Shown: positions 1 through 23,082 of the stretch, one piece after another | Layout: every line of letters begins with the position of its first letter | Numbering within the stretch: position 1 is the first letter of the stretch | Position numbers and translations under genes: made by a program | DNA from: Larix sibirica | Taxonomy: Eukaryota > Streptophyta > Pinopsida > Pinales > Pinaceae | Reading direction: 5' to 3' | Length of the DNA stretch: 25,604 nt | NCBI GenBank assembly: GCA_004151065.3 | Contig: NWUY0300004214.1 | Coordinates: 1 to 25,604 of the forward strand | The notes under the pieces: model-generated | Databases searched by the model: none | Seen by the model: the letters and a program-made list of their open reading frames with translations, nothing else | Told to the model about the DNA's origin: nothing

Positions 1-2032
1 ATAAGATACTGGAAATTAGCTACTAATAGTCGTTGACTAAAAAATAGTCATTTATATGGAAATTTTAGACATTTTTTTATCACTAATTTCTCATTTTGTA
101 CTAGTGAAAATACATGGGATGCAAATGTCTTATTCCATTCACTACTTTCATAGGAATGCATCATATAAGTGAGATAAATATTCTCTAAAACCTATGTTGT
201 GGTAATTCAGATGTTCAACAAACTTAAAGGTTAATTATTTGGTTCCATGAAAGAGAACGCTTCTAATTCAATTATAGCAATATAGAAACCATGGCACTCA
301 AATATTATTGTCAAATAAATGGTTTCTCAACACAAACTCAATGGGTTCAATGTCTATATACAACTTCTTTCACGTCACAAGGTTTTTTTTAATTATCAAA
401 TAAATAACTCAAAAGATTGTTGAGTTTTCCAAAAATAAAATAAAATAAAAATTATTTACTTGAAAATGGGTTTGCATACATACATAATGTGAAGTCTTAC
501 AAGCTTGAGAAAGAACTGGAATATAAATAATAGATGAGAATATTTGACCTTTATCTCATTAGCAAATGGTGTTCAACAATTTCATGTCTAAAATTAAAAT
601 ATTCATACTAGATAAGCACAAGCAGAAAACATAAGAAATACTCTTACACAAGCATAAGAAATCCTCACACTAATAAATAATGGAATATGCAAAGCTGGAT
701 TCAAAGACAACAATTCTCGATCTTTAAGAAATTATGCCAGACACATGTAAGTGATTTGACCTCTAGCATTCAAGCACAACCTTGAGAAAGTGCAAAGGAA
801 AAATCCATATGCATAAATGACTATTTATGTCTATAAATCTACCCATTTTAACCAAAATAACTTGGTAGAATAATGTAAAAAGGAATGCAATACATTTAGG
901 TGAGAAATTATCCATCAAATTGCATTCCAAACAATTTCAGAGTTCGATATTAACAAACCTTGCTTCCCAAGCTTGGACACACCTACACAAGAAAAAATTA
1001 ACCAAGGAAAATAATGAAAAATGCTAGGTAAAGATACAATTATGAGACATGAAAACTGCTAGGAAAATATAAAATTCACTCTCAGATATGGGATTCCAAC
1101 TCACAGGGATAACGCCCCACAAAACTAATGGAAAGAATCATACAAATAACAATAGAAAGGATTTTGTTGCAAAGTTGTTTAGCAAGTTACAATTTCACCA
1201 ATATTTCTCTGCCATTATTACATTGGAGAGGCACATATTTCTCATGCCATTCATCTCAAAATGTTAGTACATAAATGACATTCAGATTTGAAACAAATCA
1301 TTAATCCAATTCACACAAATATACATATTAGTGGTATCATATATACATGAAAGATATAAACCTATTTAAGGGCATGGTAGTTTTCACAAGCATATCGATG
1401 TTTGAAATATGTTTTGAAAAGAGAAACTAATTCTGGGTTTATGACAGAGTATTTCAGAGACCTCTAAAACATATTCTTGTGGAATATTTCCTTCCAATTT
1501 AATATGACTAATATCTATATATTCAGATTAAGATAGACAAATAATAGGATTAATATTTTGAGAAAGATAGGAATTAGGAATTAATATTCAGACATGGGAA
1601 TAAATATGAACTCCGTTTTAGTTTATATTTAGATAGGAAGAAGTTATATATGTACTTTTTATATATAGGATAAGTAAAACAATTTTATAATTAGGAGGAA
1701 GGGAAATAAGATATTTAGGTTGGTGGCATCAAACTATCTTTACTCAAAAAATCAAAAAATATAATCAGACTCTTTCGATGGCACTGAACCATTACTCTCA
1801 CTAAGCTAACCTACTGGAATTAAACTTAGTTCACATGAATTTTGCAGTATAGTATTACAGAGACAAACAATAGTAACAAACATGGATCAAAACACAAGCA
1901 TGTATCCAGATAAATATTTTGACTAGATTATAATGCAACCATGAACTATCAATAATAATAAAAAACAGGAGCTCGATTGACTCAAGGTATCCTTACCCTA
2001 TACAATGGAGAACATCTTAAGCATCCCATCCC
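1..2032. other. AT-rich non-coding DNA, no gene seen
   Basis: No open frame of useful length and no recognisable domain on either strand. The stretch is AT-rich with many short A and T runs. A 5' LTR for the downstream gypsy element would be expected here, but I see nothing resembling the LTR-like sequence after 23915. A small hairpin (TGACTA, five A, TAGTCA) lies at 34-50. The same DNA is repeated in reverse at 21051-23082. Confidence 0.6.
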
Positions 2033-2282
2033 ATGACTAGGACCTCTCAAGCAGCGGGTGGCGAATTTGGAAAATCAAAATGAAATATTGCTGGCATTCG
2101 TGGAGCAAGTTCATAATTGGGCTCAATCTCAGGTGTATCAAGAAGAACTAATGCAGGAGATCTTGGTTGAGCAATATCAACAGGTCATATCGGTCCAGCA
2201 AAAGTCAGGTTTCAGGCCTTATACAACATTCCATAGTTCTGAGTCTCATCTTATACAATGTTTACTGTATATAGTCATATAG
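2033..2282 (+). pseudogene. gag: Gag N-terminal fragment of the gypsy element (tentative)
   Basis: An ATG at 2033 opens MTRTSQAA. After a one-base shift near 2055 the frame continues as VANLENQNEILLAFVEQ and runs to a stop at 2280-2282. The segment is rich in Gln, Glu and Leu and looks helical, as Gag N-termini of plant gypsy elements often do, and it lies just upstream of a clear gag core. Similarity fades after about 2215, where the tail (SSESHLIQCLLYIVI) no longer looks like Gag. The assignment rests mainly on position and composition. It could be an unrelated short frame. Confidence 0.4.
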
Positions 2283-2446
2283 ATAATAAGGAAACGCAGA
2301 AACAAACACACACAGATCGTAACAAACACAGCAACCATAACAAACACATCAAACCATCCACCTTCATGTAATTGTTTTTTACAATATATAAACAAGAATA
2401 CAATGAAAGGAGCCTTGAACATACCTAGAAAAAAACGAACGCCAAG

Positions 2447-2575
2447 TCCACGTTCGCAGGCTACTGAAATATGAATGTTGTTTCCACATCCGCAGGCTAC
2501 TGAAAAATGACAGTCGAATCCACGTCAACAGCTTCCAAAATATCGATGCCAAATCCACCTCCGCAGGGTGTTCGA
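2447..2575. repeat. 36-bp minisatellite, about 3.6 copies
   Basis: Units begin with TCCAC at 2447, 2483, 2519 and 2554, giving periods of 36, 36 and 35 bases. Units 1 and 2 share the core CGCAGGCTACTGAAA; units 3 and 4 are more diverged. The last unit is cut short and runs into the 61/62-bp repeat. A reverse copy lies at 20508-20636. Confidence 0.8.
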
Positions 2576-2577
2576 AC

Positions 2578-2727
2578 AGGTTGATGGGTGGCCATGGTGG
2601 CCGTTTGTTCGGGATGAAGCAGCTTGGCCAGGAAAAACAGGTTGGTGGGTGGCCATGGTGGCCGTTTGGTCAGGATGAAGCAGCTTGGTCGGGCTCAAAC
2701 AGTTTGATGGATAGCCACGGTGGCAAC
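2578..2727. repeat. 61/62-bp tandem repeat, about 2.4 copies
   Basis: Copies start at 2578, 2639 and 2701 (periods 61 and 62). Copies 1 and 2 share GGTGGCCATGGTGGCCGTTTG and then GGATGAAGCAGCTTGG. The third copy fades after about 24 bases. Because the period is not a stable multiple of three, the array shifts frame between copies, which argues against a protein repeat. A reverse copy lies at 20356-20505. Confidence 0.85.
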
Positions 2728-2744
2728 AACATATCGTTTTCAGA

Positions 2745-2943
2745 GAATGTCGTTGTCGTTCGGCATAAAAATGAACTACGACGACAGTACGGGTTGTTAT
2801 ATGTAAAATTGTGTTTGACCAAATTACGCCAAAGCGGCACAATTATGGACCATATTACATCCTTTGAGAAATTTTTAATCCACACAGATGGATTCTCTGA
2901 TTCTTTTCTTGGGGAATTCTTCATCAGTCACAAAAAATCTTGA
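2745..2943 (+). pseudogene. gag: Gag core fragment (retrotransposon gag family)
   Basis: The translation contains LTKLRQSGTIMDHITSFEKF and then GFSDSFLGEFFIS, ending at a stop at 2941-2943. This is the pattern of the plant Ty3/gypsy capsid region: a Leu-rich helix, a Gln-Ser/Thr-Gly turn, an amphipathic helix and a closing FISGL-like motif. Gag forms the particle that packages element RNA. Only about 65 residues are present. The usual zinc knuckle between capsid and protease was not found, so a large part of gag is missing or unrecognisable. The frame is open upstream to 2581, but that part is the tandem repeat and not Gag-like. Confidence 0.7.
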
Positions 2944-3003
2944 CTGCTACTCCAAACACCTCCAATACACTACCATTAAAAAATCTACAAGTTGTCTCTA
3001 TAA

Positions 3004-3718
3004 GTGATGGCAAAACAATGCCTCATAATTTTTTATCACTATGATGAATGATATTTCAGAGGGAACAAATGCAAAGAACACAATTTTTTTGAAATAGATG
3101 TATCCCCACATGATCACCCAAAGGACATAACAACACTTTTCAAGCTCCTAAGAAGGAACTCCAAATTTTTCTCCATGTCTTATTAGGTTTCTCAACATAC
3201 CAAACATTTAATTGATAGTGAAAACACCCATAATTTTATTTGTAGGTGAGTAGAAAAATAAACCCATTGATATGTCTAGCCTATACCAAATTTCCAAATT
3301 ATGATAACAAATGGTGGTATGATGAAATGTGGGGGTTGATGTGAAAACGTGAAAATACAAATGAGTGACTACCATCTCAAAACACACATTTTTGTTGAAG
3401 AGTAGTTTTTTGGAGTATCCACAGTTTCCATTTTTTAGTCAACGTTTTGAATCCTCGGTTGGATTCATCATTAAAACAATCGGGTGATTATGATGTATAT
3501 TTTTGGAGGGAAAATGGCTAAGGACTTTGGGATTGATCATCGCGGATTTCAAGGACCTATATATAAGCTTCACTAAGGAATATCAAAGGGATTACTTTAG
3601 GTTATTTAGAAATTATCACCTCCCATCATATGCAAAAGTTATTAAAGAAAGTTCACTCAAGTATTATTGCACAATTCAATGCCATCCAAGTAGTGGACAC
3701 ACCCCCATAGCACATTAA
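3004..3718 (+). pseudogene. pol: Aspartic protease region of gypsy pol, decayed
   Basis: Three pieces in different frames line up with the retroviral-type aspartic protease and its link to reverse transcriptase. Near 3005 SDGKTMPHNFLS stands where the family has its active-site Asp-Ser/Thr-Gly followed by HNF. At about 3295-3400 come NGGMMKCGG, a stop, CENVKIQMSDYHLKTHIFV. At about 3488-3598, across a frameshift, GDYDV is followed by KWLRTLGLIIADFKDLYISF, the conserved strand after the protease flap. The active-site triad is altered (SDG rather than DSG), and several stops and at least two frameshifts are present. After about 3600 the open frame (to a stop at 3716-3718) runs into the protease-RT linker without clear motifs. 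Confidence 0.75.
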
Positions 3719-3830
3719 TCTGAACTTGTAGTTGGTTCTCTCTTAACATAAAGAATTTTTTGAAAAATCCAAGGATTTACCATCGACCCATGGGGAGCAT
3801 GGTCATGGTATTCTACTAATTCTATGAATT

Positions 3831-4540
3831 CAACCCCCTAATGTATGCCCTTATCGACATCCCTTTGCACAAAAGAATGAAATCAAAAAATTCATTCACA
3901 AGTTGTTTTGGGATGTCATCATTCATCCTAGTACCATACCTTATTCCTCACCAGTGGTTATAGTGTTGAAAAAGGAGGGGACTTTATGGATGTTTCTTGA
4001 TTTTTGAGCTCTCAATAAGTTGACTATCAAGGATAAATTTCCTATTTCAGTCTATGATGACCTCCTATACAAGATTCTTGGAGAAAAGTTCTTGACTAAA
4101 CTGGACCGTCTTTCTACACCCTTGAGGGCCATTATGATATTTTAATAATGTATGTTTTCCTTTGCAATGTACCATCCACCTATTAGAGTTTCATGAAAAA
4201 TGATCTTGCGACCTTTCCTCCACAATTTTGTGTTTCCCTTCTTTGATGATATATTAATCTTTGTTACAACATGTGAAGGCCACCTAGATCATTTTGATTG
4301 TGCCTTGCAATTATTAAAGGGCCATCCATTATTTGTGAAGTGTTCCAAATGTTCTTTTAGGGTTACTAAGTTTGAATATATGGGTCATACTATGATTTCA
4401 AATGGAGTACGTGTGGACCCCAAGAAAGTGGCAACTATGAAATCCTATCCATGCCCCAAGACCCTTAAGATCTTGCACAAGTTCCATGGATTTACTAGCT
4501 ACTACAAAAATTCGTAAAAAATTGTGGAACAAATGCATAT
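3831..4540 (+). pseudogene. pol: Ty3/gypsy reverse transcriptase, decayed
   Basis: From 3831 the frame reads PPNVCPYRHPFAQKNEIKKF, then HPSTIPYSSPVVIVLKK, DF, a stop at 4005-4007, ALNKLTIKDKFPIS and GEKFLTKLD. These are the RT finger and palm motifs, including the LD Asp of the first catalytic block. After a poorly preserved stretch around 4120-4200 the frame changes and 4200-4517 gives FFDDILIF (the xxDD catalytic box), then KCSKCSFRVTKFEYMGHTM, VDPKKVATMK and the thumb/connection motif HGFTSYYKNS. A one-base shift near 4510 truncates it, and similarity resumes briefly until the LINE insertion. The stop at 4005 stands where the family has Arg, consistent with CGA to TGA. The remainder resumes at about 10466. 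Confidence 0.92.
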
Positions 4541-4546
4541 CCTTCC

Positions 4547-4554
4547 TTTTTTTT
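4547..4554 (-). other. LINE poly(A) tail remnant (A8 on the minus strand)
   Basis: Eight T on the plus strand lie at the exact point where gypsy RT similarity stops. Read on the minus strand this is the A-tail ending the LINE. The about 310 bases upstream in LINE orientation (4555-4865) hold no clear frame and act as its 3' UTR. Confidence 0.75.
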
Positions 4555-4865
4555 GGTAAGTAAGGCTATATTATATTACTTCAAAAAGATGGCATGTCCA
4601 ATAGTACAATTCAAATCCAGAGCCATGAAATCAGGCATATGACATTGCTCTGTCAGTCTTCCCACACCATATCAACCAAAACCAAAACCATCCCACTACT
4701 ATGAGGATAACTATTGACATAATATACATATACAATTACCACAGACTTGTAGCTAACTATATCATTGACGACCCTATCAGACACACTAGTAATGACACTA
4801 ACAAAATAACGATTGAACGTCAAATGACCAAAAGAATAAAATAGCTACAGAACCTGAAGGTTCCC

Positions 4866-5441
4866 TTAATCAAGTCGAGCAGCATGATGAACAGGTTGTG
4901 GTGGAGCTGTGATGATTCCATCCATTGTTGGAGCAGGTTGAGCTGGCTATGGAGGAGCTTCTGCAAACCCAACCATCGGCGTCGAACGAGGAAGGAATCT
5001 TATCCCCAATTTACTTGCAATGAGATCCACCTTACGATGCATCAAGCAGCAATCAACATTGTCGTCTTTCCACGCTTGAATTAGATCCATATCCCCTTCT
5101 TCTTTTTTAGTTCTCTCCATAAGAACCCAGGAGAAAATGCCCTTCATCACCTAGAAGGTCGAAACTATACGGTCATAGGCTTCCTTACAACCTCGCACTG
5201 AACCAGAGTCTTGCACCCACTCTATGAGCTCATCAAAATCCTCACTCATCTGCATATTGTGGACTTGGTCCCAAAGACCCCACTCAATTTCCTCAATTTC
5301 CTCTTTAATGAAAACAAGGATTCTAGATTTAAAGAATTGGGTTTCCTGACCAGCCTGCTTTTGCTCTCTGGTGGCTCGAGGTGTAATAGCCACCCTTTTC
5401 CCCTTCACTTCTCACTTAGCTCGTTTCCCCTTGGTCTCCAT
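4866..5441 (-). pseudogene. Unrecognised 3' reading frame of the LINE (ORF3)
   Basis: Downstream of the RNase H, an ATG at 5441 (minus strand) opens a frame of 191 codons before a TAA at 4866-4868. It carries three in-frame stops (TGA about 5413, TAG about 5152, TAG about 4948) but no frameshift. The N-terminus is basic (METKGKRAK and, after the first stop, KGKRVAITPRATREQKQAGQ). The middle is acidic and probably helical (FIKEEIEEIEWGLWDQ, SEDFDELIEWVQD). A Cys-containing stretch (DNVDCCLMHRKVDLIASKLG) follows, then a Pro/Ala-rich tail (PAQPAPTMDG, APPQPVHHAARLD). The frame may extend upstream to about 5534 (GNFGYFHPHERRYLVLGNN). I recognise no family. It may be a LINE-specific third ORF, a captured fragment, or a frameshifted ORF2 extension. 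Random DNA of this length would be expected to hold about nine stops. Confidence 0.5.
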
Positions 5442-5782
5442 CGACCCCAACCACCGGTATTCTAGGTTGTTCCCAAGCACCAAATATCTCCTTTCATGGG
5501 GATGAAAATAACCAAAGTTTCCAACTGGTAACACTCACACCTAGTTTGCATTCCTCTACCTGAATAAGAACCCATGCCACCATAAATTCTCATAATGACC
5601 TCTATTATCTCCCCAAAATCCTAATTGGAGTTCATACCTTTGACCAATCCTCCCACACCAGCGCACTTTATGCCATTATTCTCCATAGCTTTAATCTCGT
5701 AGTCCCTCCTCTCCCATACAGACTCATTACTGCAATCTCCACCTAACATCAACTAGCCCCTCTTCCAACAATAACCATTGCC
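5405..5782 (-). other. Region between LINE RNase H and 3' frame, possible ORF2 tail
   Basis: The ORF2 frame continues past the TAA at 5783 with only a few stops (TAG at about 5753-5755, 5621-5623 and 5462-5464, TGA at about 5405-5407). It encodes ERRDYEIKAMENNGIKCAG, GGMGSYSGRGMQTRCECYQ and NTGGWGRWRPRGN. A second frame reads GHYENLWWHGFLF and then GNFGYFHPHERRYLVLGNN and joins the 3' frame. I cannot tell which was the ancestral frame. Nothing in it matches a domain I know. Confidence 0.45.
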
Positions 5783-5982
5783 TTAATTAACACCCTGCAT
5801 GAGGTCATAATTTATGACACGAAAAGATACTCCTCTAGGCGTAGGCACGTGGGGCATCACATTCTATGCATCCTCCTCCCTTGCCTCTCCGTTACCCACA
5901 TCAGGGATGCTAATATCATGAGCTGCAAGGAGTTCACATTGGTTGACCCATGTCTGATCTCCAATCGACTACAGCTTACCTT

Positions 5983-6516
5983 ATGTATTGTTTATGCGAT
6001 CCTTCTCTCCTTTGTTTGCTAGGATATCCACTACCTTATTGCCATTATGTTTGACGTTGTTGAAAGAGAGGGCCCAAATTTGACATAGCAAGGAAATTAA
6101 TTTCTCTAGTCTATAATCTAGATGCTACTTGTTAGTCCTTTTGTAATTCCCTTTCCATTGATAATATTATTTTGGAGTAACCTTCCACTATTAGTGGTGT
6201 ACAATCCTTCTAAATCACCATCTTTATCCCATACAGAAGGTCCTCCAATTTAGAAGCATTATTAATTTATGTTCCTATGTATCATGTATAAGCTTCCAAA
6301 ATCCCCCCCCTAGTGGTTTTGAAATATCCCTCCAAAACCAGCCAAACCCAGGTTCCCTTTGGATGCCCCATCAAAATTAAGTTTGATATACCCCTCTGGG
6401 GGAGCACACCAATAGTTTGGGCTTAAATCCTCTACCATCCTTAATTTATTTAGCCTAATAAAACTTGGAAGAGATCTCACTTCCCTATTTTCAAGAATAC
6501 TTCTTTGTTGATCCAA
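5983..6516 (-). pseudogene. LINE ORF2 RNase H domain, third catalytic Asp lost
   Basis: A ribonuclease H domain, typical of many plant L1 elements, removes the RNA strand of the hybrid. Visible motifs: EGYIKLNFDGASKGN with the first catalytic Asp, NNASKLEDLLYGIKM with the Glu helix, LIVEGYSKII where the family has VEGDS (the third acidic residue is Tyr here), and VKHNGNKVVDILANKGEK with the last Asp. Stops follow GGIFQNH (6310-6312) and recur within the domain; a frame change before VKHNGN is also needed. The domain is inactive by both substitution and truncation. Confidence 0.9.
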
Positions 6517-6766
6517 GGCTTGCTAGTCCTATTCACTCCAATTGGTCATCTGGAGAGTCTCAAGAATATGTAGCTTGATCTTAGTCCATACTCCATTCTA
6601 CGAATCGCTCTTGTCTTGAAAAATATGTTGATTCCTTTCCTTCCATATTTCCCAAAACAAAAATCCTAGAAATATTTGCCAGATTATATTGATAATTGTA
6701 TTTTGAAATGGTTTAACTATTCATTCTTTGATAGATAGTTTCGGTCTACCATGAACACGGTTCAAA

Positions 6767-7950
6767 TTTTAGAATACTTTAGTAGTTGTGTCCCATAATG
6801 TTGATACAAATGTGCATGCATCTAGCAAGGGGTCCATCGTTTCCTTTGCTTGGGAACACATAACACAACGGGATGGGCCAACTATCCCTCTCTTGCTTGG
6901 ATTTTCCCCTGTCGAGATTCGCCTTTTGACTACCAACCACAAGAATGTTTCCACCTTGGGCCAGATATTTACCTTCCATATTTTATTCCATACTTCTTGT
7001 TTTGTAAACTCTCTTTGTCCCGTCCATAAAATGTAAGCTTCCTTTAGGTTAAAAGATCATTTTGGTGATAATCCCCACCTCAGTTTGTCTAGTCCCCTCT
7101 GGATCCAAATATGCCACTCTTAGATGGTTTCCCATAGTCTTTGGGGCTCCTCTTCTTGACGATTCAGTCTCCCCCATTCATGTGGATTCCATCATCTGAA
7201 ATCTCCTTCCCCCGATATCTCATGCTAGAATTCCTTTACTTTCATCCATCCCCTTTCTTGGCAAACAACTTGAAAACCAGGCGCTTCTAGGTGATGAACA
7301 AGGTTTGGGAGTTGTTTCCAAGAGTCTTGCAAAAATTACACATCGCCTCCATTTCATATTTCCCAAAAACTATGTTCCTGAATTAAACTTCTTCCTTGAA
7401 TAATTGTCCTCCAAATATAAGATCTAGGCTTCAGTTCTGCAAATATGATAAGATCTTGTTTATTCCAAACTTGATCATACTTACAGTGCCATATTTTATG
7501 CCATGGTTCCTCTTTGTGGGTTACCCACCTCCACCATATTTTAGCACCCAAGACCTTGATTTTATTCTTTGGATATCTTAGGCCTAGGCCACCTTGTAAT
7601 TTAGGCATACATATATTATCCCAACTAACCAACGCTCATTTGATCCTCTCTTGTGTTTCCCCCCAAAGAAACTTTCTTTGCATATTCCTTATCTCTTTCA
7701 GAACTGCCTTTGGTGTTTCCATCGCTGAAAATAAATAGATTGCCATGGATCGAAGGACTGATTTTACCAATACCAATCCAATTGTCAAGTTGAGGGGTTT
7801 CAACACCCAATTTGCTAACTTCTATTTCATCTGGTCAAGAAAATACATCCAAGAATATTTCCTAATAATAGAGTCATCCAGAGAGGCCCCTAGATATTTG
7901 GATGGAAGGGAGCTCCCTTGGAATCCCAAAATGCATAGAATATTAAGTTG
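6767..7950 (-). pseudogene. LINE ORF2 thumb/linker and zf-RVT zinc-binding region
   Basis: Downstream of RT the fragments SKYLGASLDD, VLKEIRNMQRKFLWG, VSWDNICMPKLQGGLGLRYP and then VETFLWLVVKRRISTGENPS and KRGIVGPSRCVMC follow the plant L1 order. The zf-RVT module normally has two close Cys, a His and a Cys. Here CVMC is present and a later Cys (LLDAC) is present, but the expected His just before LL is Pro, so the metal site is probably lost. Several stops and shifts break the region. A single arm-to-arm difference (7893 versus 15190) falls in SKYLGAS and is synonymous (Leu). Confidence 0.85.
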
Positions 7951-8053
7951 GGTAGTCCAGGGAGTGTTGATCAAGAAGAAAACCTAATATTTATCTTCAT
8001 TAACTTCAAGTCCTAAGGTGACAGAGAACATGTTTAAACATTTTTTTAATTGC

Positions 8054-8908
8054 TCATGCTACTTGAACCAATGGGTGACCCATTAACATTGTATCATCAA
8101 TGAATTGTTGGTGGAAGTATTTTGTCACCAAAGGATGTAAGCTCAAGCATCTAATTTCATGCCTCTCCATCATTTCCTTGATTGTCCTACCCATCCCTCT
8201 TGCCAATAGAATGAAAAGAAAGGGGGAAAGTGGATCCCCTTGTCTAATTCCCCTAGATGGCCTAAAGCTGGGGGTTGGGGATCCATTCAAAAATATTGAG
8301 AAGAAGGCTGATAAAGTCAAACTCATGATCCATCCCACCCAAGCATCCCAAAAACCAAAATCCTTCAACATCTCCCTCTTGAACTGCCAACTTATTTTTT
8401 CGTATGATTTATAAATATCAAGCTTGAGTAGCATCCTCATCTTCTTTCTTATTTTTAAGGAATGAATCGCCTCATGCACTAGAATTATCCCATCCAATAT
8501 TTTCCTTTCCTCCATGAATCCCGATTGCTCCAGCGAGATCAGTGCGGGAATGAGAGGTTTCATCCTATTGGCTATGACTTTAGTTATAATTTTATAGATA
8601 ACATTGCACAACGAAATTGGTCCAAATTTACCTGGAGTGTTTGCTCCATCACTTTTGGGAATAGGAGTTAAGAACGTGGCATTGAAGGTCGCTAACACTC
8701 CTTTGGATCTTCCTGAGTATTCCACTATTCTCAACAACTCCTCCTTGATCATATCCCATAAGTGGTGAAAGAAATTAGTTATGAAGCCATCCGACCTAGA
8801 GGATTTCCCATATTCCATTTGTTTATCTGCTTCTTCAACTTCCTTCATTTCCACTAGCCGCATCAATATGTCATTTTGGGTGTTAGACACCAAAGATGGG
8901 ATATGCTA
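8054..8908 (-). pseudogene. LINE ORF2 reverse transcriptase domain, longest open piece (279 codons)
   Basis: This is the longest open frame in the arm. Motifs in order, numbering from the first codon of the open piece: FNATFLTPIPKSDGANTP and FGPISLCNVIYKIITKVIAN (residues 68-109), EQSGFMEERKILDGI (122-136), KLDIYKSYEKISW (157-169, first catalytic Asp 159), RPSRGIRQGDPLSPFLF (211-227), and HQQFIDDTML (261-270) with the catalytic Asp pair 266-267. The L1 RT catalytic Asp residues are therefore retained. The family motif that usually reads KAPGPDGF is degraded to SSRSDGF. The frame is closed upstream by a TAG at 8907 and downstream by a TGA at 8054. Confidence 0.95.
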
Positions 8909-9504
8909 GGTAATCCTCGCAATATCGGCCAATCTATCATATCGTGGCTCCTCCATAATGTCCTTGAAGTAATTCACCAATTCCTCTTCAATCTCTTCTC
9001 GAGTCTCAACCGGTTTCCCATCCTCCTTCTTCATCCTTAGTACTTTATTCTTTTTCAATGTTGAATTGTTGATCTATGGAAGAAATTGTTGTTTCGTTCT
9101 CCTTCTTTTAACCACATATTCCTTGATTTCTGCTTCCACGGGATATTCTCCTGAGACTCCCTAGAATCAATTTGTTCCAAGATATTAGTTTCATGTGCCT
9201 TAAGTTATTTTGTATATCCATTTTGCATGCCATCCAATTGGATTTCGTCTAGTTAGATTTCCAGCCTTCTTTTATCTTGGAAAATATTCTCAAATTCTTA
9301 TTTGTTCCATATTAATATTTTTCCTTTAGTAGTTTTTAATTTCTATTGAAATTGGTACATACTTGATCCCCGTGGTACTTCCAACTCCTCTCTCCATTAT
9401 TGCACCATCGTCTTGAAGTCCTTATCCCCTAACCATAAATGCTCAAAATGAAAAGGCTTTCTAGCAAGGTAACCAAACCCACTCCATCACAAGCTAACGA
9501 GCCA

Positions 9505-10188
9505 GTGGTCTGAACTTTTCGAAGGAAGCACCAAGGCTGATAATTCTACCTTGCCATAACAATAGATTCACATAGCAAGGACATATCCAAACATGAGGTC
9601 ACATGCTGATCTCCACTTTATCTTTTATTATTCCAATTATAGACGCTATTTCCTGTATCTACATCTATTAACTTCGATTTTTCTATGAAATTCCCAAATG
9701 CTTTGTTTTTCATCCCCAAAATCCTCCTTCCTCCCTTTGTTTCCCTCAAGGACGCTATCATATTGAAATCCCCTCCAATGATCCAATGTGTGTTCTCTAC
9801 CCATCTACTAACTCCCTCTAAAGATTCTAAAGATTCTAGCTTTTTTTGTTGCATTTGGGTCCATAAACATTGGAGATCACCCCACCAATCATTGTTCCAA
9901 CAATCTGAAATTATATGGAAAGGGATCTCAAAGTAGCTAATAAATTAGATAGACATAACTCTATAGGGTTCCATAGGATTTCCAAGCCTCTTGCAGCTCC
10001 ATTTGCATCAATTGCTATTGCCTCGCTTCCCTTCCATGCTCTTCTACCTTTTTCTCTGATAGCATCTTCCTGACATTTGGTTTCTTGAAGCAACAAAACC
10101 ATCGTCTTTTCTTTCCTTATATTTTTTCTTAGGATTCTAATTTTTTGGGAGTTACTTGCCCCCTTATATTCCAAGTTATAACTTTCAT
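9505..10188 (-). pseudogene. LINE ORF2 AP-type endonuclease domain
   Basis: The apurinic-endonuclease fold motifs appear in order: WNIRG at the start, LLLQETKC (metal-binding Glu) in the segment 9911-10174, WIIGGDFNMIASLRETKGG in 9618-9854, and SSDHWL at about 9505-9513, the closing Ser-Asp-His motif. In L1 elements this domain cuts one target strand to prime reverse transcription. The motif residues are visible but lie in three different frames (shift near 10160, stop at 9911-9913, stop at 9618-9620), so no functional protein can be made. Confidence 0.88.
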
Positions 10189-10277
10189 TGAGTTCGATTA
10201 CTTAACTCTAAAAGACTTGCCTTGATTTTGGGATATTGTCCATATTCCACCAATTTGATACCAACTTCTGTTATTCT

Positions 10278-10460
10278 TTACTTGTTTCTCTTCCTTCCTT
10301 GTTTCTCTCCATTGTCCATAAACTCAAATTTATTCTCCTTTGTTATCTCCAAAGACATCCCCAATTGAGGGGATTCCTTCACCCGCAATATAGCCTCCTG
10401 AAGCAGTTCTACTTGTCGAAAGGGTACCTACCCCTTTCCTTTATCGTCACAAGCTCTTTC
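10278..10460 (-). pseudogene. Possible C-terminal remnant of LINE ORF1
   Basis: About 90 bases before the ORF2 start, a minus-strand frame ends at a TAA (10278-10280) with ENKFEFMDNGEKQGRKRNK. Position and charge suit the tail of a plant L1 ORF1 (RNA-binding protein), but no RRM or zinc knuckle is present, because the LINE is truncated just upstream. Weak call. Confidence 0.3.
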
Positions 10461-10465
10461 GATCC

Positions 10466-11580: not shown

Positions 11581-12019
11581 GACTTGTGCAACAATTGATG
11601 GTGTTAAAGGGTGTGACAAGAAACAAAAGTGATCATTATTGGAAAGGTGATTAACTACCACTATGGATGATTTCTTACTAGCTCTATGAAGACCTATTAT
11701 AAAATCCATAGAGATATCAATCCATATATGGGTTGGAATCAACAGAGGCTAGGCGGCACCTGGTGACTTCACCATCTCTCCCTTGTGCCATTGACAAGTG
11801 TCATAGGTTGTGACAAAGTTTTAGATGTCTATTTTCATGCATTCCCAAAAGAATGAGCACTTAATATTTCATAGGTTTTATGAAATCCTAAGTGACTTGA
11901 TGTGGGTGATGAATGCAACTCCTCTAAGATTTGTTATTTTAAGGTTGAATTCAGTGCCAAAAAAAGTGCTCTTTATACCTCAATGTATATCAGTTCCATG
12001 TATACCTAGTTGGAAGGTT
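11575..12019 (-). pseudogene. pol: Mirror copy of gypsy integrase, first half
   Basis: Reverse-complement copy of 11064-11508. The minus-strand frame 11560-11742 gives THIWIDISMDFIIGLHRAS, with Gly at the codon (11692-11694) that is Arg in the left arm. This copy ends at the palindrome centre without the rest of the integrase, so it is cut in mid-domain. Confidence 0.85.
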
Positions 12020-12617: not shown

Positions 12618-14174
12618 GGATCGAAAGAGCTTGTGACGATAAAGGAAAGGGGTAGGTACCCTTTCGACAAGTAGAACTGCTTCAGGAGGCTATATTGCGG
12701 GTGAAGGAATCCCCTCAATTGGGGATGTCTTTGGAGATAACAAAGGAGAATAAATTTGAGTTTATGGACAATGGAGAGAAACAAGGAAGGAAGAGAAACA
12801 AGTAAAGAATAACAGAAGTTGGTATCAAATTGGTGGAATATGGACAATATCCCAAAATCAAGGCAAGTCTTTTAGAGTTAAGTAATCGAACTCAATGAAA
12901 GTTATAACTTGGAATATAAGGGGGCAAGTAACTCCCAAAAAATTAGAATCCTAAGAAAAAATATAAGGAAAGAAAAGACGATGGTTTTGTTGCTTCAAGA
13001 AACCAAATGTCAGGAAGATGCTATCAGAGAAAAAGGTAGAAGAGCATGGAAGGGAAGCGAGGCAATAGCAATTGATGCAAATGGAGCTGCAAGAGGCTTG
13101 GAAATCCTATGGAACCCTATAGAGTTATGTCTATCTAATTTATTAGCTACTTTGAGATCCCTTTCCATATAATTTCAGATTGTTGGAACAATGATTGGTG
13201 GGGTGATCTCCAATGTTTATGGACCCAAATGCAACAAAAAAAGCTAGAATCTTTAGAATCTTTAGAGGGAGTTAGTAGATGGGTAGAGAACACACATTGG
13301 ATCATTGGAGGGGATTTCAATATGATAGCGTCCTTGAGGGAAACAAAGGGAGGAAGGAGGATTTTGGGGATGAAAAACAAAGCATTTGGGAATTTCATAG
13401 AAAAATCGAAGTTAATAGATGTAGATACAGGAAATAGCGTCTATAATTGGAATAATAAAAGATAAAGTGGAGATCAGCATGTGACCTCATGTTTGGATAT
13501 GTCCTTGCTATGTGAATCTATTGTTATGGCAAGGTAGAATTATCAGCCTTGGTGCTTCCTTCGAAAAGTTCAGACCACTGGCTCGTTAGCTTGTGATGGA
13601 GTGGGTTTGGTTACCTTGCTAGAAAGCCTTTTCATTTTGAGCATTTATGGTTAGGGGATAAGGACTTCAAGACGATGGTGCAATAATGGAGAGAGGAGTT
13701 GGAAGTACCACGGGGATCAAGTATGTACCAATTTCAATAGAAATTAAAAACTACTAAAGGAAAAATATTAATATGGAACAAATAAGAATTTGAGAATATT
13801 TTCCAAGATAAAAGAAGGCTGGAAATCTAACTAGACGAAATCCAATTGGATGGCATGCAAAATGGATATACAAAATAACTTAAGGCACATGAAACTAATA
13901 TCTTGGAACAAATTGATTCTAGGGAGTCTCAGGAGAATATCCCGTGGAAGCAGAAATCAAGGAATATGTGGTTAAAAGAAGGAGAACGAAACAACAATTT
14001 CTTCCATAGATCAACAATTCAACATTGAAAAAGAATAAAGTACTAAGGATGAAGAAGGAGGATGGGAAACCGGTTGAGACTCGAGAAGAGATTGAAGAGG
14101 AATTGGTGAATTACTTCAAGGACATTATGGAGGAGCCACGATATGATAGATTGGCCGATATTGCGAGGATTACC

Positions 14175-15029
14175 TAGCATATCCCATCTTTGGTGTCTAA
14201 CACCCAAAATGACATATTGATGCGGCTAGTGGAAATGAAGGAAGTTGAAGAAGCAGATAAACAAATGGAATATGGGAAATCCTCTAGGTCGGATGGCTTC
14301 ATAACTAATTTCTTTCACCACTTATGGGATATGATCAAGGAGGAGTTGTTGAGAATAGTGGAATACTCAGGAAGATCCAAAGGAGTGTTAGCGACCTTCA
14401 ATGCCACGTTCTTAACTCCTATTCCCAAAAGTGATGGAGCAAACACTCCAGGTAAATTTGGACCAATTTCGTTGTGCAATGTTATCTATAAAATTATAAC
14501 TAAAGTCATAGCCAATAGGATGAAACCTCTCATTCCCGCACTGATCTCGCTGGAGCAATCGGGATTCATGGAGGAAAGGAAAATATTGGATGGGATAATT
14601 CTAGTGCATGAGGCGATTCATTCCTTAAAAATAAGAAAGAAGATGAGGATGCTACTCAAGCTTGATATTTATAAATCATACGAAAAAATAAGTTGGCAGT
14701 TCAAGAGGGAGATGTTGAAGGATTTTGGTTTTTGGGATGCTTGGGTGGGATGGATCATGAGTTTGACTTTATCAGCCTTCTTCTCAATATTTTTGAATGG
14801 ATCCCCAACCCCCAGCTTTAGGCCATCTAGGGGAATTAGACAAGGGGATCCACTTTCCCCCTTTCTTTTCATTCTATTGGCAAGAGGGATGGGTAGGACA
14901 ATCAAGGAAATGATGGAGAGGCATGAAATTAGATGCTTGAGCTTACATCCTTTGGTGACAAAATACTTCCACCAACAATTCATTGATGATACAATGTTAA
15001 TGGGTCACCCATTGGTTCAAGTAGCATGA
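14175..15029 (+). pseudogene. Mirror copy of LINE reverse transcriptase open piece
   Basis: Identical in translation to 8054-8908 on the other strand: 279 codons between a TAG at 14175 and a TGA at 15027, with the LDI, RQGDP and FIDD motifs. It is a duplicate of one gene fragment and not a second independent LINE. Confidence 0.93.
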
Positions 15030-16566
15030 GCAATTAAAAAAATGTTTAAACATGTTCTCTGTCACCTTAGGACTTGAAGTTAATGAAGATAAATATTAGG
15101 TTTTCTTCTTGATCAACACTCCCTGGACTACCCAACTTAATATTCTATGCATTTTGGGATTCCAAGGGAGCTCCCTTCCATCCAAATATTTAGGGGCCTC
15201 TCTGGATGACTCTATTATTAGGAAATATTCTTGGATGTATTTTCTTGACCAGATGAAATAGAAGTTAGCAAATTGGGTGTTGAAACCCCTCAACTTGACA
15301 ATTGGATTGGTATTGGTAAAATCAGTCCTTCGATCCATGGCAATCTATTTATTTTCAGCGATGGAAACACCAAAGGCAGTTCTGAAAGAGATAAGGAATA
15401 TGCAAAGAAAGTTTCTTTGGGGGGAAACACAAGAGAGGATCAAATGAGCGTTGGTTAGTTGGGATAATATATGTATGCCTAAATTACAAGGTGGCCTAGG
15501 CCTAAGATATCCAAAGAATAAAATCAAGGTCTTGGGTGCTAAAATATGGTGGAGGTGGGTAACCCACAAAGAGGAACCATGGCATAAAATATGGCACTGT
15601 AAGTATGATCAAGTTTGGAATAAACAAGATCTTATCATATTTGCAGAACTGAAGCCTAGATCTTATATTTGGAGGACAATTATTCAAGGAAGAAGTTTAA
15701 TTCAGGAACATAGTTTTTGGGAAATATGAAATGGAGGCGATGTGTAATTTTTGCAAGACTCTTGGAAACAACTCCCAAACCTTGTTCATCACCTAGAAGC
15801 GCCTGGTTTTCAAGTTGTTTGCCAAGAAAGGGGATGGATGAAAGTAAAGGAATTCTAGCATGAGATATCGGGGGAAGGAGATTTCAGATGATGGAATCCA
15901 CATGAATGGGGGAGACTGAATCGTCAAGAAGAGGAGCCCCAAAGACTATGGGAAACCATCTAAGAGTGGCATATTTGGATCCAGAGGGGACTAGACAAAC
16001 TGAGGTGGGGATTATCACCAAAATGATCTTTTAACCTAAAGGAAGCTTACATTTTATGGACGGGACAAAGAGAGTTTACAAAACAAGAAGTATGGAATAA
16101 AATATGGAAGGTAAATATCTGGCCCAAGGTGGAAACATTCTTGTGGTTGGTAGTCAAAAGGCGAATCTCGACAGGGGAAAATCCAAGCAAGAGAGGGATA
16201 GTTGGCCCATCCCGTTGTGTTATGTGTTCCCAAGCAAAGGAAACGATGGACCCCTTGCTAGATGCATGCACATTTGTATCAACATTATGGGACACAACTA
16301 CTAAAGTATTCTAAAATTTGAACCGTGTTCATGGTAGACCGAAACTATCTATCAAAGAATGAATAGTTAAACCATTTCAAAATACAATTATCAATATAAT
16401 CTGGCAAATATTTCTAGGATTTTTGTTTTGGGAAATATGGAAGGAAAGGAATCAACATATTTTTCAAGACAAGAGCGATTCGTAGAATGGAGTATGGACT
16501 AAGATCAAGCTACATATTCTTGAGACTCTCCAGATGACCAATTGGAGTGAATAGGACTAGCAAGCC

Positions 16567-17100
16567 TTGGATCAACAAAGAAGTATTCTTGAAAATAGGG
16601 AAGTGAGATCTCTTCCAAGTTTTATTAGGCTAAATAAATTAAGGATGGTAGAGGATTTAAGCCCAAACTATTGGTGTGCTCCCCCAGAGGGGTATATCAA
16701 ACTTAATTTTGATGGGGCATCCAAAGGGAACCTGGGTTTGGCTGGTTTTGGAGGGATATTTCAAAACCACTAGGGGGGGGATTTTGGAAGCTTATACATG
16801 ATACATAGGAACATAAATTAATAATGCTTCTAAATTGGAGGACCTTCTGTATGGGATAAAGATGGTGATTTAGAAGGATTGTACACCACTAATAGTGGAA
16901 GGTTACTCCAAAATAATATTATCAATGGAAAGGGAATTACAAAAGGACTAACAAGTAGCATCTAGATTATAGACTAGAGAAATTAATTTCCTTGCTATGT
17001 CAAATTTGGGCCCTCTCTTTCAACAACGTCAAACATAATGGCAATAAGGTAGTGGATATCCTAGCAAACAAAGGAGAGAAGGATCGCATAAACAATACAT
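16567..17100 (+). pseudogene. Mirror copy of LINE RNase H
   Basis: Reverse complement of 5983-6516. NFDGASKGN, KLEDLLYGIK, VEGYSK (Tyr in place of the catalytic Asp) and GNKVVDILANKG read on the plus strand with the same stops. Confidence 0.88.
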
Positions 17101-17641
17101 AAGGTAAGCTGTAGTCGATTGGAGATCAGACATGGGTCAACCAATGTGAACTCCTTGCAGCTCATGATATTAGCATCCCTGATGTGGGTAACGGAGAGGC
17201 AAGGGAGGAGGATGCATAGAATGTGATGCCCCACGTGCCTACGCCTAGAGGAGTATCTTTTCGTGTCATAAATTATGACCTCATGCAGGGTGTTAATTAA
17301 GGCAATGGTTATTGTTGGAAGAGGGGCTAGTTGATGTTAGGTGGAGATTGCAGTAATGAGTCTGTATGGGAGAGGAGGGACTACGAGATTAAAGCTATGG
17401 AGAATAATGGCATAAAGTGCGCTGGTGTGGGAGGATTGGTCAAAGGTATGAACTCCAATTAGGATTTTGGGGAGATAATAGAGGTCATTATGAGAATTTA
17501 TGGTGGCATGGGTTCTTATTCAGGTAGAGGAATGCAAACTAGGTGTGAGTGTTACCAGTTGGAAACTTTGGTTATTTTCATCCCCATGAAAGGAGATATT
17601 TGGTGCTTGGGAACAACCTAGAATACCGGTGGTTGGGGTCG

Positions 17642-18217
17642 ATGGAGACCAAGGGGAAACGAGCTAAGTGAGAAGTGAAGGGGAAAAGGGTGGCTATTAC
17701 ACCTCGAGCCACCAGAGAGCAAAAGCAGGCTGGTCAGGAAACCCAATTCTTTAAATCTAGAATCCTTGTTTTCATTAAAGAGGAAATTGAGGAAATTGAG
17801 TGGGGTCTTTGGGACCAAGTCCACAATATGCAGATGAGTGAGGATTTTGATGAGCTCATAGAGTGGGTGCAAGACTCTGGTTCAGTGCGAGGTTGTAAGG
17901 AAGCCTATGACCGTATAGTTTCGACCTTCTAGGTGATGAAGGGCATTTTCTCCTGGGTTCTTATGGAGAGAACTAAAAAAGAAGAAGGGGATATGGATCT
18001 AATTCAAGCGTGGAAAGACGACAATGTTGATTGCTGCTTGATGCATCGTAAGGTGGATCTCATTGCAAGTAAATTGGGGATAAGATTCCTTCCTCGTTCG
18101 ACGCCGATGGTTGGGTTTGCAGAAGCTCCTCCATAGCCAGCTCAACCTGCTCCAACAATGGATGGAATCATCACAGCTCCACCACAACCTGTTCATCATG
18201 CTGCTCGACTTGATTAA
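17642..18217 (+). pseudogene. Mirror copy of the unrecognised LINE 3' frame
   Basis: Reverse complement of 4866-5441. ATG at 17642, TGA at 17669-17671, TAG at 17930-17932, TAG at 18134-18136, TAA at 18215-18217, all in one frame without any shift. The in-frame stops are the same in both arms. Confidence 0.5.
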
Positions 18218-18542
18218 GGGAACCTTCAGGTTCTGTAGCTATTTTATTCTTTTGGTCATTTGACGTTCAATCGTTATTTTGTTAGTGTCATTACTAGTGT
18301 GTCTGATAGGGTCGTCAATGATATAGTTAGCTACAAGTCTGTGGTAATTGTATATGTATATTATGTCAATAGTTATCCTCATAGTAGTGGGATGGTTTTG
18401 GTTTTGGTTGATATGGTGTGGGAAGACTGACAGAGCAATGTCATATGCCTGATTTCATGGCTCTGGATTTGAATTGTACTATTGGACATGCCATCTTTTT
18501 GAAGTAATATAATATAGCCTTACTTACCAAAAAAAAGGAAGG

Positions 18543-19252
18543 ATATGCATTTGTTCCACAATTTTTTACGAATTTTTGTAGTAGCTAGTAAATCCATGGA
18601 ACTTGTGCAAGATCTTAAGGGTCTTGGGGCATGGATAGGATTTCATAGTTGCCACTTTCTTGGGGTCCACACGTACTCCATTTGAAATCATAGTATGACC
18701 CATATATTCAAACTTAGTAACCCTAAAAGAACATTTGGAACACTTCACAAATAATGGATGGCCCTTTAATAATTGCAAGGCACAATCAAAATGATCTAGG
18801 TGGCCTTCACATGTTGTAACAAAGATTAATATATCATCAAAGAAGGGAAACACAAAATTGTGGAGGAAAGGTCGCAAGATCATTTTTCATGAAACTCTAA
18901 TAGGTGGATGGTACATTGCAAAGGAAAACATACATTATTAAAATATCATAATGGCCCTCAAGGGTGTAGAAAGACGGTCCAGTTTAGTCAAGAACTTTTC
19001 TCCAAGAATCTTGTATAGGAGGTCATCATAGACTGAAATAGGAAATTTATCCTTGATAGTCAACTTATTGAGAGCTCAAAAATCAAGAAACATCCATAAA
19101 GTCCCCTCCTTTTTCAACACTATAACCACTGGTGAGGAATAAGGTATGGTACTAGGATGAATGATGACATCCCAAAACAACTTGTGAATGAATTTTTTGA
19201 TTTCATTCTTTTGTGCAAAGGGATGTCGATAAGGGCATACATTAGGGGGTTG
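18543..19252 (-). pseudogene. pol: Mirror copy of gypsy reverse transcriptase
   Basis: Reverse complement of 3831-4540. The open part 18566-18883 gives FFDDILIF and SKCSFRVTKFEYMGH; the N-terminal part carries the same stop in place of Arg. Confidence 0.9.
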
Positions 19253-19364
19253 AATTCATAGAATTAGTAGAATACCATGACCATGCTCCCCATGGGTCGA
19301 TGGTAAATCCTTGGATTTTTCAAAAAATTCTTTATGTTAAGAGAGAACCAACTACAAGTTCAGA

Positions 19365-20079
19365 TTAATGTGCTATGGGGGTGTGTCCACTACTTGGATG
19401 GCATTGAATTGTGCAATAATACTTGAGTGAACTTTCTTTAATAACTTTTGCATATGATGGGAGGTGATAATTTCTAAATAACCTAAAGTAATCCCTTTGA
19501 TATTCCTTAGTGAAGCTTATATATAGGTCCTTGAAATCCGCGATGATCAATCCCAAAGTCCTTAGCCATTTTCCCTCCAAAAATATACATCATAATCACC
19601 CGATTGTTTTAATGATGAATCCAACCGAGGATTCAAAACGTTGACTAAAAAATGGAAACTGTGGATACTCCAAAAAACTACTCTTCAACAAAAATGTGTG
19701 TTTTGAGATGGTAGTCACTCATTTGTATTTTCACGTTTTCACATCAACCCCCACATTTCATCATACCACCATTTGTTATCATAATTTGGAAATTTGGTAT
19801 AGGCTAGACATATCAATGGGTTTATTTTTCTACTCACCTACAAATAAAATTATGGGTGTTTTCACTATCAATTAAATGTTTGGTATGTTGAGAAACCTAA
19901 TAAGACATGGAGAAAAATTTGGAGTTCCTTCTTAGGAGCTTGAAAAGTGTTGTTATGTCCTTTGGGTGATCATGTGGGGATACATCTATTTCAAAAAAAT
20001 TGTGTTCTTTGCATTTGTTCCCTCTGAAATATCATTCATCATAGTGATAAAAAATTATGAGGCATTGTTTTGCCATCAC
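19365..20079 (-). pseudogene. pol: Mirror copy of gypsy protease region
   Basis: Reverse complement of 3004-3718, including the KWLRTLG segment (19365-19580 open frame) and the same frameshifts. Confidence 0.72.
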
Positions 20080-20139
20080 TTATAGAGACAACTTGTAGAT
20101 TTTTTAATGGTAGTGTATTGGAGGTGTTTGGAGTAGCAG

Positions 20140-20338
20140 TCAAGATTTTTTGTGACTGATGAAGAATTCCCCAAGAAAAGAATCAGAGAATCCATCTGTG
20201 TGGATTAAAAATTTCTCAAAGGATGTAATATGGTCCATAATTGTGCCGCTTTGGCGTAATTTGGTCAAACACAATTTTACATATAACAACCCGTACTGTC
20301 GTCGTAGTTCATTTTTATGCCGAACGACAACGACATTC
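20140..20338 (-). pseudogene. gag: Mirror copy of gag core
   Basis: Reverse complement of 2745-2943, with LRQSGTIMDHITSFEKF and the same stop at the end. Confidence 0.68.
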
Positions 20339-20355
20339 TCTGAAAACGATATGTT

Positions 20356-20636
20356 GTTGCCACCGTGGCTATCCATCAAACTGTTTGAGCCCGACCAAGC
20401 TGCTTCATCCTGACCAAACGGCCACCATGGCCACCCACCAACCTGTTTTTCCTGGCCAAGCTGCTTCATCCCGAACAAACGGCCACCATGGCCACCCATC
20501 AACCTGTTCGAACACCCTGCGGAGGTGGATTTGGCATCGATATTTTGGAAGCTGTTGACGTGGATTCGACTGTCATTTTTCAGTAGCCTGCGGATGTGGA
20601 AACAACATTCATATTTCAGTAGCCTGCGAACGTGGA
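20356..20636. repeat. Mirror copies of the 61/62-bp and 36-bp tandem repeats
   Basis: Reverse complement of 2447-2727. The 61/62-bp units occupy about 20356-20505 and the 36-bp units about 20508-20636. Copy numbers and unit variants match those of the left arm. Confidence 0.85.
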
Positions 20637-20800
20637 CTTGGCGTTCGTTTTTTTCTAGGTATGTTCAAGGCTCCTTTCATTGTATTCTTGTTTATATATT
20701 GTAAAAAACAATTACATGAAGGTGGATGGTTTGATGTGTTTGTTATGGTTGCTGTGTTTGTTACGATCTGTGTGTGTTTGTTTCTGCGTTTCCTTATTAT

Positions 20801-21050
20801 CTATATGACTATATACAGTAAACATTGTATAAGATGAGACTCAGAACTATGGAATGTTGTATAAGGCCTGAAACCTGACTTTTGCTGGACCGATATGACC
20901 TGTTGATATTGCTCAACCAAGATCTCCTGCATTAGTTCTTCTTGATACACCTGAGATTGAGCCCAATTATGAACTTGCTCCACGAATGCCAGCAATATTT
21001 CATTTTGATTTTCCAAATTCGCCACCCGCTGCTTGAGAGGTCCTAGTCAT
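20801..21050 (-). pseudogene. gag: Mirror copy of gag N-terminal fragment
   Basis: Reverse complement of 2033-2282 with the same one-base shift after MTRTSQAA. Tentative for the same reasons as the left copy. Confidence 0.38.
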
Positions 21051-23082
21051 GGGATGGGATGCTTAAGATGTTCTCCATTGTATAGGGTAAGGATACCTTG
21101 AGTCAATCGAGCTCCTGTTTTTTATTATTATTGATAGTTCATGGTTGCATTATAATCTAGTCAAAATATTTATCTGGATACATGCTTGTGTTTTGATCCA
21201 TGTTTGTTACTATTGTTTGTCTCTGTAATACTATACTGCAAAATTCATGTGAACTAAGTTTAATTCCAGTAGGTTAGCTTAGTGAGAGTAATGGTTCAGT
21301 GCCATCGAAAGAGTCTGATTATATTTTTTGATTTTTTGAGTAAAGATAGTTTGATGCCACCAACCTAAATATCTTATTTCCCTTCCTCCTAATTATAAAA
21401 TTGTTTTACTTATCCTATATATAAAAAGTACATATATAACTTCTTCCTATCTAAATATAAACTAAAACGGAGTTCATATTTATTCCCATGTCTGAATATT
21501 AATTCCTAATTCCTATCTTTCTCAAAATATTAATCCTATTATTTGTCTATCTTAATCTGAATATATAGATATTAGTCATATTAAATTGGAAGGAAATATT
21601 CCACAAGAATATGTTTTAGAGGTCTCTGAAATACTCTGTCATAAACCCAGAATTAGTTTCTCTTTTCAAAACATATTTCAAACATCGATATGCTTGTGAA
21701 AACTACCATGCCCTTAAATAGGTTTATATCTTTCATGTATATATGATACCACTAATATGTATATTTGTGTGAATTGGATTAATGATTTGTTTCAAATCTG
21801 AATGTCATTTATGTACTAACATTTTGAGATGAATGGCATGAGAAATATGTGCCTCTCCAATGTAATAATGGCAGAGAAATATTGGTGAAATTGTAACTTG
21901 CTAAACAACTTTGCAACAAAATCCTTTCTATTGTTATTTGTATGATTCTTTCCATTAGTTTTGTGGGGCGTTATCCCTGTGAGTTGGAATCCCATATCTG
22001 AGAGTGAATTTTATATTTTCCTAGCAGTTTTCATGTCTCATAATTGTATCTTTACCTAGCATTTTTCATTATTTTCCTTGGTTAATTTTTTCTTGTGTAG
22101 GTGTGTCCAAGCTTGGGAAGCAAGGTTTGTTAATATCGAACTCTGAAATTGTTTGGAATGCAATTTGATGGATAATTTCTCACCTAAATGTATTGCATTC
22201 CTTTTTACATTATTCTACCAAGTTATTTTGGTTAAAATGGGTAGATTTATAGACATAAATAGTCATTTATGCATATGGATTTTTCCTTTGCACTTTCTCA
22301 AGGTTGTGCTTGAATGCTAGAGGTCAAATCACTTACATGTGTCTGGCATAATTTCTTAAAGATCGAGAATTGTTGTCTTTGAATCCAGCTTTGCATATTC
22401 CATTATTTATTAGTGTGAGGATTTCTTATGCTTGTGTAAGAGTATTTCTTATGTTTTCTGCTTGTGCTTATCTAGTATGAATATTTTAATTTTAGACATG
22501 AAATTGTTGAACACCATTTGCTAATGAGATAAAGGTCAAATATTCTCATCTATTATTTATATTCCAGTTCTTTCTCAAGCTTGTAAGACTTCACATTATG
22601 TATGTATGCAAACCCATTTTCAAGTAAATAATTTTTATTTTATTTTATTTTTGGAAAACTCAACAATCTTTTGAGTTATTTATTTGATAATTAAAAAAAA
22701 CCTTGTGACGTGAAAGAAGTTGTATATAGACATTGAACCCATTGAGTTTGTGTTGAGAAACCATTTATTTGACAATAATATTTGAGTGCCATGGTTTCTA
22801 TATTGCTATAATTGAATTAGAAGCGTTCTCTTTCATGGAACCAAATAATTAACCTTTAAGTTTGTTGAACATCTGAATTACCACAACATAGGTTTTAGAG
22901 AATATTTATCTCACTTATATGATGCATTCCTATGAAAGTAGTGAATGGAATAAGACATTTGCATCCCATGTATTTTCACTAGTACAAAATGAGAAATTAG
23001 TGATAAAAAAATGTCTAAAATTTCCATATAAATGACTATTTTTTAGTCAACGACTATTAGTAGCTAATTTCCAGTATCTTAT
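21051..23082. other. Mirror copy of the AT-rich non-coding DNA
   Basis: Reverse complement of 1-2032; no gene seen on either strand. Its last base abuts the n, and its end is the exact complement of the first bases of the window. Confidence 0.6.

Follow-up and report, generated by a model that had tools for sequence, protein, structure and literature searches.

The draft genome of the Siberian larch, Larix sibirica (GenBank assembly GCA_004151065.3), carries on contig NWUY0300004214.1 (C1436 in what follows) a 23-kb palindrome that is built of old, nested retrotransposons and is followed by a single N and a tail. The window, that is, the whole stretch of DNA analysed here, positions 1 to 25,604, is the entire contig, of 25,604 bp. 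Each arm of the palindrome holds a Ty3/gypsy element interrupted by a long interspersed nuclear element (LINE), and the short loop between the arms belongs to the gypsy integrase, which the tail continues. An earlier reading of the same DNA, made from its letters and below called the original prediction, had leaned towards an artefact in which a single strand doubles back on itself and is copied as far as its 5' end. We discuss here whether the palindrome belongs to the chromosome or was produced on the way from library to assembly.

Geometry of the palindrome and its outer end

Base i of the contig complements base 23083 - i at 11,505 of the 11,508 positions from i = 1 to 11508, leaving 0.026% mismatched, and a palindrome of this kind arising by chance is out of the question. 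The arms have equal lengths and not a single indel, which bears out the original prediction as regards coordinates summing to 23083 and the lack of any net change in length. The equal lengths of its 11,508-bp arms also stand, but not the base-for-base identity that it ascribed to them, the letter-for-letter match being broken at three sites, 7893, 11389 and 11391. At the first of these the left arm has G and the right arm, in the reading of the left strand, A. Exact pairing stops at 11508/11575; a repeat finder, which extended the arms to 11,511 nt through a mismatch, places them at 1-11511 and 11572-23082, on either side of a 60-nt spacer (11512-11571). What follows the turn is the directly preceding sequence in reverse complement, as in fold-back chimeras. 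The 88 nt at the centre of the palindrome occur once in the assembly, counting exact matches only, and 50 nt of the loop gave no exact match in either viral_contigs or genome_contigs.

The two outer ends deserve closer attention. Because the window is the whole contig, base 1 of the palindrome is merely the place where the contig starts, and the equality of the arms therefore shows no more than that the right arm stops where it faces the contig's beginning. Contigs often break within repeats, and the module that opens this one (1-106) matches, whole or in parts, many other sites at 74-93% identity, 41 matches being listed, two of which are C1436 itself. The left flank was compared in three of the four copies of the module that we viewed: two copies on contig C3621 are 96.7% alike over the left-hand 60 bases, and in a copy on C18443 15 of 16 left-hand bases agree with one of them. 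On this slender evidence, the dispersed repeat may well extend past base 1. The original prediction had held equality down to the outermost base to be unlikely for a genomic inversion sampled by chance; this argument is weakened by base 1 being a contig start, placed inside a dispersed repeat or on its margin.

At the other end, the sole N of the window, at 23083, comes directly after the right arm, and single Ns are a convention that some scaffolders use. Past it, 23084-23146 repeats 11518-11580 directly, at 63 of 63 positions, and so covers the greater part of the loop together with the bases just beyond. The two copies then diverge: from 11581 on, the palindrome reads as the left arm in reverse complement, and past 23146 the gypsy integrase goes on. 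The N, the direct repeat of the loop and the fact that the window is a whole contig were all absent from the original prediction. A genomic fold-back duplication should, by the yardstick that we set ourselves, have an outer breakpoint unrelated to the assembly's own ends; here the outer end of the inverted arm lies opposite contig base 1 and a single N follows. The nodes of a de Bruijn assembly overlap by k-1, according to the excerpt that we used (PMC9215042), and we considered whether the 63-nt overlap might betray the k of such an assembler; this is possible but a guess, two other duplicated joins in this assembly measuring exactly 56 and 32 nt.

Parental order and the fold-back junction

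The integrase indicates how the pieces belong together. Its two pieces were queried separately with phmmer against the PDB. The frame that runs through left arm and loop, searched from about 11275, matches residues 1144-1229 of the Ty3 Gag-Pol protein (PDB 7q5b) with an E-value of 0.0005. For the tail piece the match to this protein covers residues 1246-1322 (E 0.00081), and there is also one to the integrase of prototype foamy virus (PFV; best E 1.6e-5). The pieces are collinear on Ty3 across a gap of 16 residues, and 6 and 8 residues at their facing ends are left unmatched. In Pfam the tail reached E 0.02, with rve_3, and the other piece E 0.28, with an unrelated family; neither is significant, and the assignment to an integrase therefore rests on the phmmer searches against the PDB and on the paralogs.

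These paralogs form a set of 19 fetched stretches, about 75-80% identical, out of 39 places listed outside C1436. In all 19 a query from the left arm (10900-11580) and a query from loop and tail (23084-23784) match adjacently and on the same strand, with no inverted copy between them, while a query from the right arm matches solely as the antisense of the same stretch. A parental continuation without the inverted copy, as expected beside a chimera, is thus visible in the tail that starts in the loop, in the paralogs and in the Ty3 coordinates. Because all 19 stretches run through left arm, loop and tail on one strand, and because the two pieces are collinear on Ty3, this order is, to judge from the sequence, the parental one, and 11581-23082 is the intruder.

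The turn itself has a recognizable form. The CATGAA at 11575-11580 can pair with the TTCATG at 11503-11508, making an inverted microhomology of 6 bp, as found in chimeras. When fold-back points were drawn at random from the same sequence with offsets of 50-100 nt, 467 of 200,000 (0.23%) had at least 6 bp. The excerpts of the literature on which we draw here describe such turns in several contexts. Among 475 chimeras formed in multiple displacement amplification (MDA), more than 85% were inverted and more than 70% were primed at a complementarity of 2-21 nt (PMC1855051), and ordinary library preparation for short reads, which does not involve MDA, also gives chimeric reads in which the strand switches to its own complement (PMC10908179). 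Human fold-back duplications show 2-8 bp of microhomology at 13 junctions (PMC3907307). Since real junctions carry microhomology of this length too, the 6 bp alone are not decisive.

The nested retrotransposons

The features of the contig are collected in Table 1. In the left arm a LINE on the minus strand, lying within 4515-10505, splits a Ty3/gypsy element on the plus strand between its reverse transcriptase and its RNase H, and the whole arrangement is mirrored in the right arm. Both elements are ridden with stops. The succession reverse transcriptase, RNase H, integrase is that of Ty3/gypsy elements, and a reverse transcriptase with a downstream zf-RVT domain is what characterizes plant LINEs. 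The LINE endonuclease gave weak matches below the cut-off at 10201-9621 on the minus strand (E 0.026-0.074). Relatives of the LINE reverse transcriptase are 43-60% identical among the 120 listed out of 2801; nine of these 120 bear names in PITA_, which we take to be the locus prefix of Pinus taeda, the rest being unnamed or called 'hypothetical protein', and this makes a conifer the likely source of the element. In genome_contigs, 27 stretches fit a pattern for such relatives and none was confirmed. A search for exact target-site duplications of the LINE, of at least 8 bp, between 4515-4960 and 10195-10510 gave two weak and unconvincing matches of 9 and 8 bp. Nor does the contig contain a direct repeat pair that resembles long terminal repeats (the loop copy, short tandem units and one weak 45-nt pair were seen), and the element may exceed the contig ends. 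Scans of the window for tRNAs and for Rfam families, at the gathering threshold, gave no matches. Tandem repeats with units of 18, 36 and 61 bp, in two to three copies each, lie at 2301-2357, 2447-2523 and 2575-2724; the 61-bp array is mirrored at 20359-20508, and the 36- and 61-bp arrays fall inside an open frame (2419-2940) that matches no Pfam family.

Table 1. Features of the contig and their coordinates
Feature	Position	Strand	Remark
Left arm	1..11508	+	Degenerate Ty3/gypsy (+ strand) interrupted by LINE (- strand); read as the parental copy
Dispersed repeat module	1..106	+	Opens the contig; copies at other sites have further sequence on their left side
Gypsy reverse transcriptase, C-terminal part	4197..4514	+	RVT_1, E 8.1e-7; 29.4 bits, just under the curated cut-off of 29.6
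zf-RVT domain	6772..7056	-	Downstream of the LINE reverse transcriptase; E 9.6e-20
LINE reverse transcriptase	8057..8905	-	Mirror open reading frame 14190-15029 (+) in right arm: RVT_1, E 1.6e-25
Gypsy RNase H domain	10506..10793	+	RT_RNaseH_2, E 8.5e-13
TTCATG	11503..11508	+	Fold-back microhomology; pairs with 11575-11580
Loop and first right-arm bases	11509..11580	+	Part of the integrase; repeat-finder spacer 11512-11571
CATGAA	11575..11580	+	Last bases common to palindrome centre and tail, before the chimeric switch
Right arm	11581..23082	-	Reverse-complement copy of the left arm, read as the intruding segment; ends exactly opposite base 1
Single N	23083	.	Read as a scaffold join of the palindromic piece to the tail piece
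Direct repeat, 63 nt	23084..23146	+	100% identical to 11518-11580; start of the tail piece, overlapping the loop
Tail	23147..25604	+	Continuation of the gypsy integrase and downstream sequence, up to the contig end

Origin of the palindrome

We can understand this arrangement, with high confidence, as an artefact of library construction or assembly that came to lie in old nested retrotransposons, rather than as a structure of the chromosome, because the palindrome begins at the contig start, is followed by an N, has a loop of which 63 nt recur and an integrase that runs on into the tail, and is bypassed in the 19 paralogous stretches. A library molecule, we propose, would have folded back by about 70 nt at its 3' end, ...CATGAA at 11580, and paired with the TTCATG of its own strand at 11503-11508, and extension of the paired end would have created a hairpin junction. 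The assembler would then have followed this junction, rewriting the left-arm contig in reverse until it reached the contig's own end at base 1. To that outer end the scaffolder would have attached the tail, which truly belongs in the middle of the palindrome, the single N marking an unresolved negative gap; as the tail piece begins inside the loop, it would overlap the middle of the palindrome by 63 nt. On the chromosome one would most likely find the left arm (1-11508), the loop to 11580 and the tail from 23147, forming one degenerate Ty3/gypsy element with a nested LINE, and the contig would represent, if the artefact reading holds, about 14,038 bp of chromosome (1-11580 and 23147-25604).

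The habits of the assembly were looked at in a comparison sample of 54 loci outside C1436, amounting to 150,052 bases, overlapping pieces included, or about 0.02% of the assembly. Besides two longer runs of N, of 446 and 1,500, it contains seven single-N positions, six of them distinct (loci L003 and L026 show one alike). Two of the six, at 1932 and 2649 of locus L013 on contig C3621, have exact duplicates on their two sides, 56 nt in one case and 32 nt in the other, and these joins seem to be overlapping ends left unmerged. Three pairs of contigs (loci L045-L050 and L053-L060), picked for identical coordinates in lists of matches, share their starting coordinate: C15712 and C13678 show no difference in 2,500 positions at the start and two in 1,499 close to where the shorter contig stops, C16164 and C16149 two in 2,500 and none in 1,435, and C743 and C14643 none in 1,000 and three in 3,000, with 85% identity near their ends. 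Differences thus amount to 0-0.13% in six of the seven pieces compared, against 0.026% between the arms of the palindrome. The simplest reading would be that the pipeline emits one locus, or its alleles, repeatedly with slight differences, real recent duplicates being another possibility, and the divergence of the arms is in keeping with such redundant, near-identical contigs. Single Ns together with near-identical contigs of the same start suggest a scaffolded short-read draft. Locus L060 (C13678, 8801-11187) also holds an older inverted repeat of 236 nt, 92% alike (872-1107 and 1647-1875), which flanks the point where the near-identical C15712 ends.

Several observations weigh against the artefact reading, or at least against its simplest form. 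Within 400 bases of the other four of the six single Ns there is no flanking duplicate, and a single N is therefore no proof of an overlap. A second long, near-perfect palindrome was not found in the 54 other loci, so that this sample gives no sign of the artefact recurring. The differences between the arms are also telling, two of the three falling in one codon, 11389-11391, which is AGG in the left arm and GGT in the right. In the 19 paralogs this codon is GGG (14), GGA (2), AGA (1), GGT (1) or GAG (1), so that each arm has a rare base of its own, the A at 11389 and the T at 11391 each occurring in one of 19. This is the sole observation that simple re-use of one contig does not predict. The right arm is thus no plain re-print of the left, and two differently corrected, or allelic, versions fit these arm-specific bases better than a plain copy does.

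If the palindrome is an artefact, it might have come from a single long hairpin molecule, formed when a strand of some 11.5 kb was copied to its 5' end after folding back, or when a duplex end was closed, and then read as one 23-kb read and polished. This is a sub-case contained in the artefact reading, and we hold it to be doubtful. Equal arms and microhomology would follow from it directly; they do not require it, the contig start already accounting for the equality, and the signs of a scaffolded short-read draft speak against it, without being proof. The loop is not an adapter, as it is found again in the tail and forms part of the integrase, although no adapter search was made. What the original prediction said of a fold-back artefact is upheld by the microhomology, the continuity of the integrase, the 19 paralogs and the N with its repeated loop. 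Its claim that one 11.5-kb strand was copied to the 5' end fares less well: equal arms follow equally from one contig written in both orientations as far as its own end, and long-strand copying is therefore not demonstrated.

A real and very recent inverted duplication, by whatever route, appears to us highly improbable. Replication or repair might, for example, have folded back at CATGAA and copied 11.5 kb backwards, and a second template switch, near 23082, might have led back to the loop and on into the tail. The 6 bp of microhomology fall within the 2-8 bp of the 13 human fold-back junctions (PMC3907307), and the second switch could have left its mark in the direct 63-nt repeat of loop sequence. 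Yet this switch would have to coincide both with the point opposite the contig start and with a single N, and the 60-nt loop is far shorter than the human spacers, which span 766-70,466 bp in 21 sequenced cases (PMC3907307). Moreover, of the three differences between the arms two are clustered within 3 bp; were the three placed at random in 11,508 positions, we estimate the probability of this at about 0.001, and the clustering resembles a local consensus error rather than ageing. Slimmer still is the chance of one specific version, a germ-line duplication in which a single event with two template switches inverted 11.5 kb around a 60-nt loop; the first switch would have led out at CATGAA and the second back into the loop, leaving the 63-nt direct repeat. 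With arms differing at only three sites, such a duplication would be very young. We give hardly any credence to the idea that gene conversion has kept the arms of an old genomic inverted repeat identical. It would explain arms that are near-identical, but the tail piece begins within the loop after an N, the nested elements are stop-ridden and yet the arms differ at just 3 sites in 11,508, and the 19 paralogous stretches show no such structure.

The artefact reading carries a caution, in that a palindrome whose first base is also the contig's first, and which runs out on a single N, should not be taken for biology unless reads support it. The loop repeated directly after the N is a tell-tale by which this draft and others like it could be searched for errors of this kind. 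Should the duplication be real after all, a plant genome would offer a clean example of fold-back replication, a counterpart of human and yeast events.

It is worth placing this contig among known systems, the exact pattern having no match among the titles listed in literature searches on palindromic, fold-back and long-read artefacts or on palindromes in conifer assemblies. The human fold-back inverted duplications (PMC3907307) are alike in having arms, a spacer and an inverted microhomology of a few bp; their spacers are of 766-70,466 bp against 60 nt here, and their junctions were sequenced in patients, whereas ours is inferred from a draft contig. The inverted chimeras of MDA (PMC1855051) also join inverted sequence from nearby, with a short unduplicated turn and priming by a few complementary bases, although the second arm of C1436 spans a whole contig and this DNA may not have been amplified. 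The short-read chimeras (PMC10908179) arise in end repair, when a strand likewise runs on along its own complement at a short inverted repeat, but these are short human reads as against an assembled palindrome of 23 kb. For the outer end, negative gaps are treated in two papers (PMC3158087; PMC5368935), the excerpts of which do not give a single N as their mark. In Meraculous (PMC3158087), as apparently at the join of palindrome and tail, flanking contigs overlap and merging is not always done.

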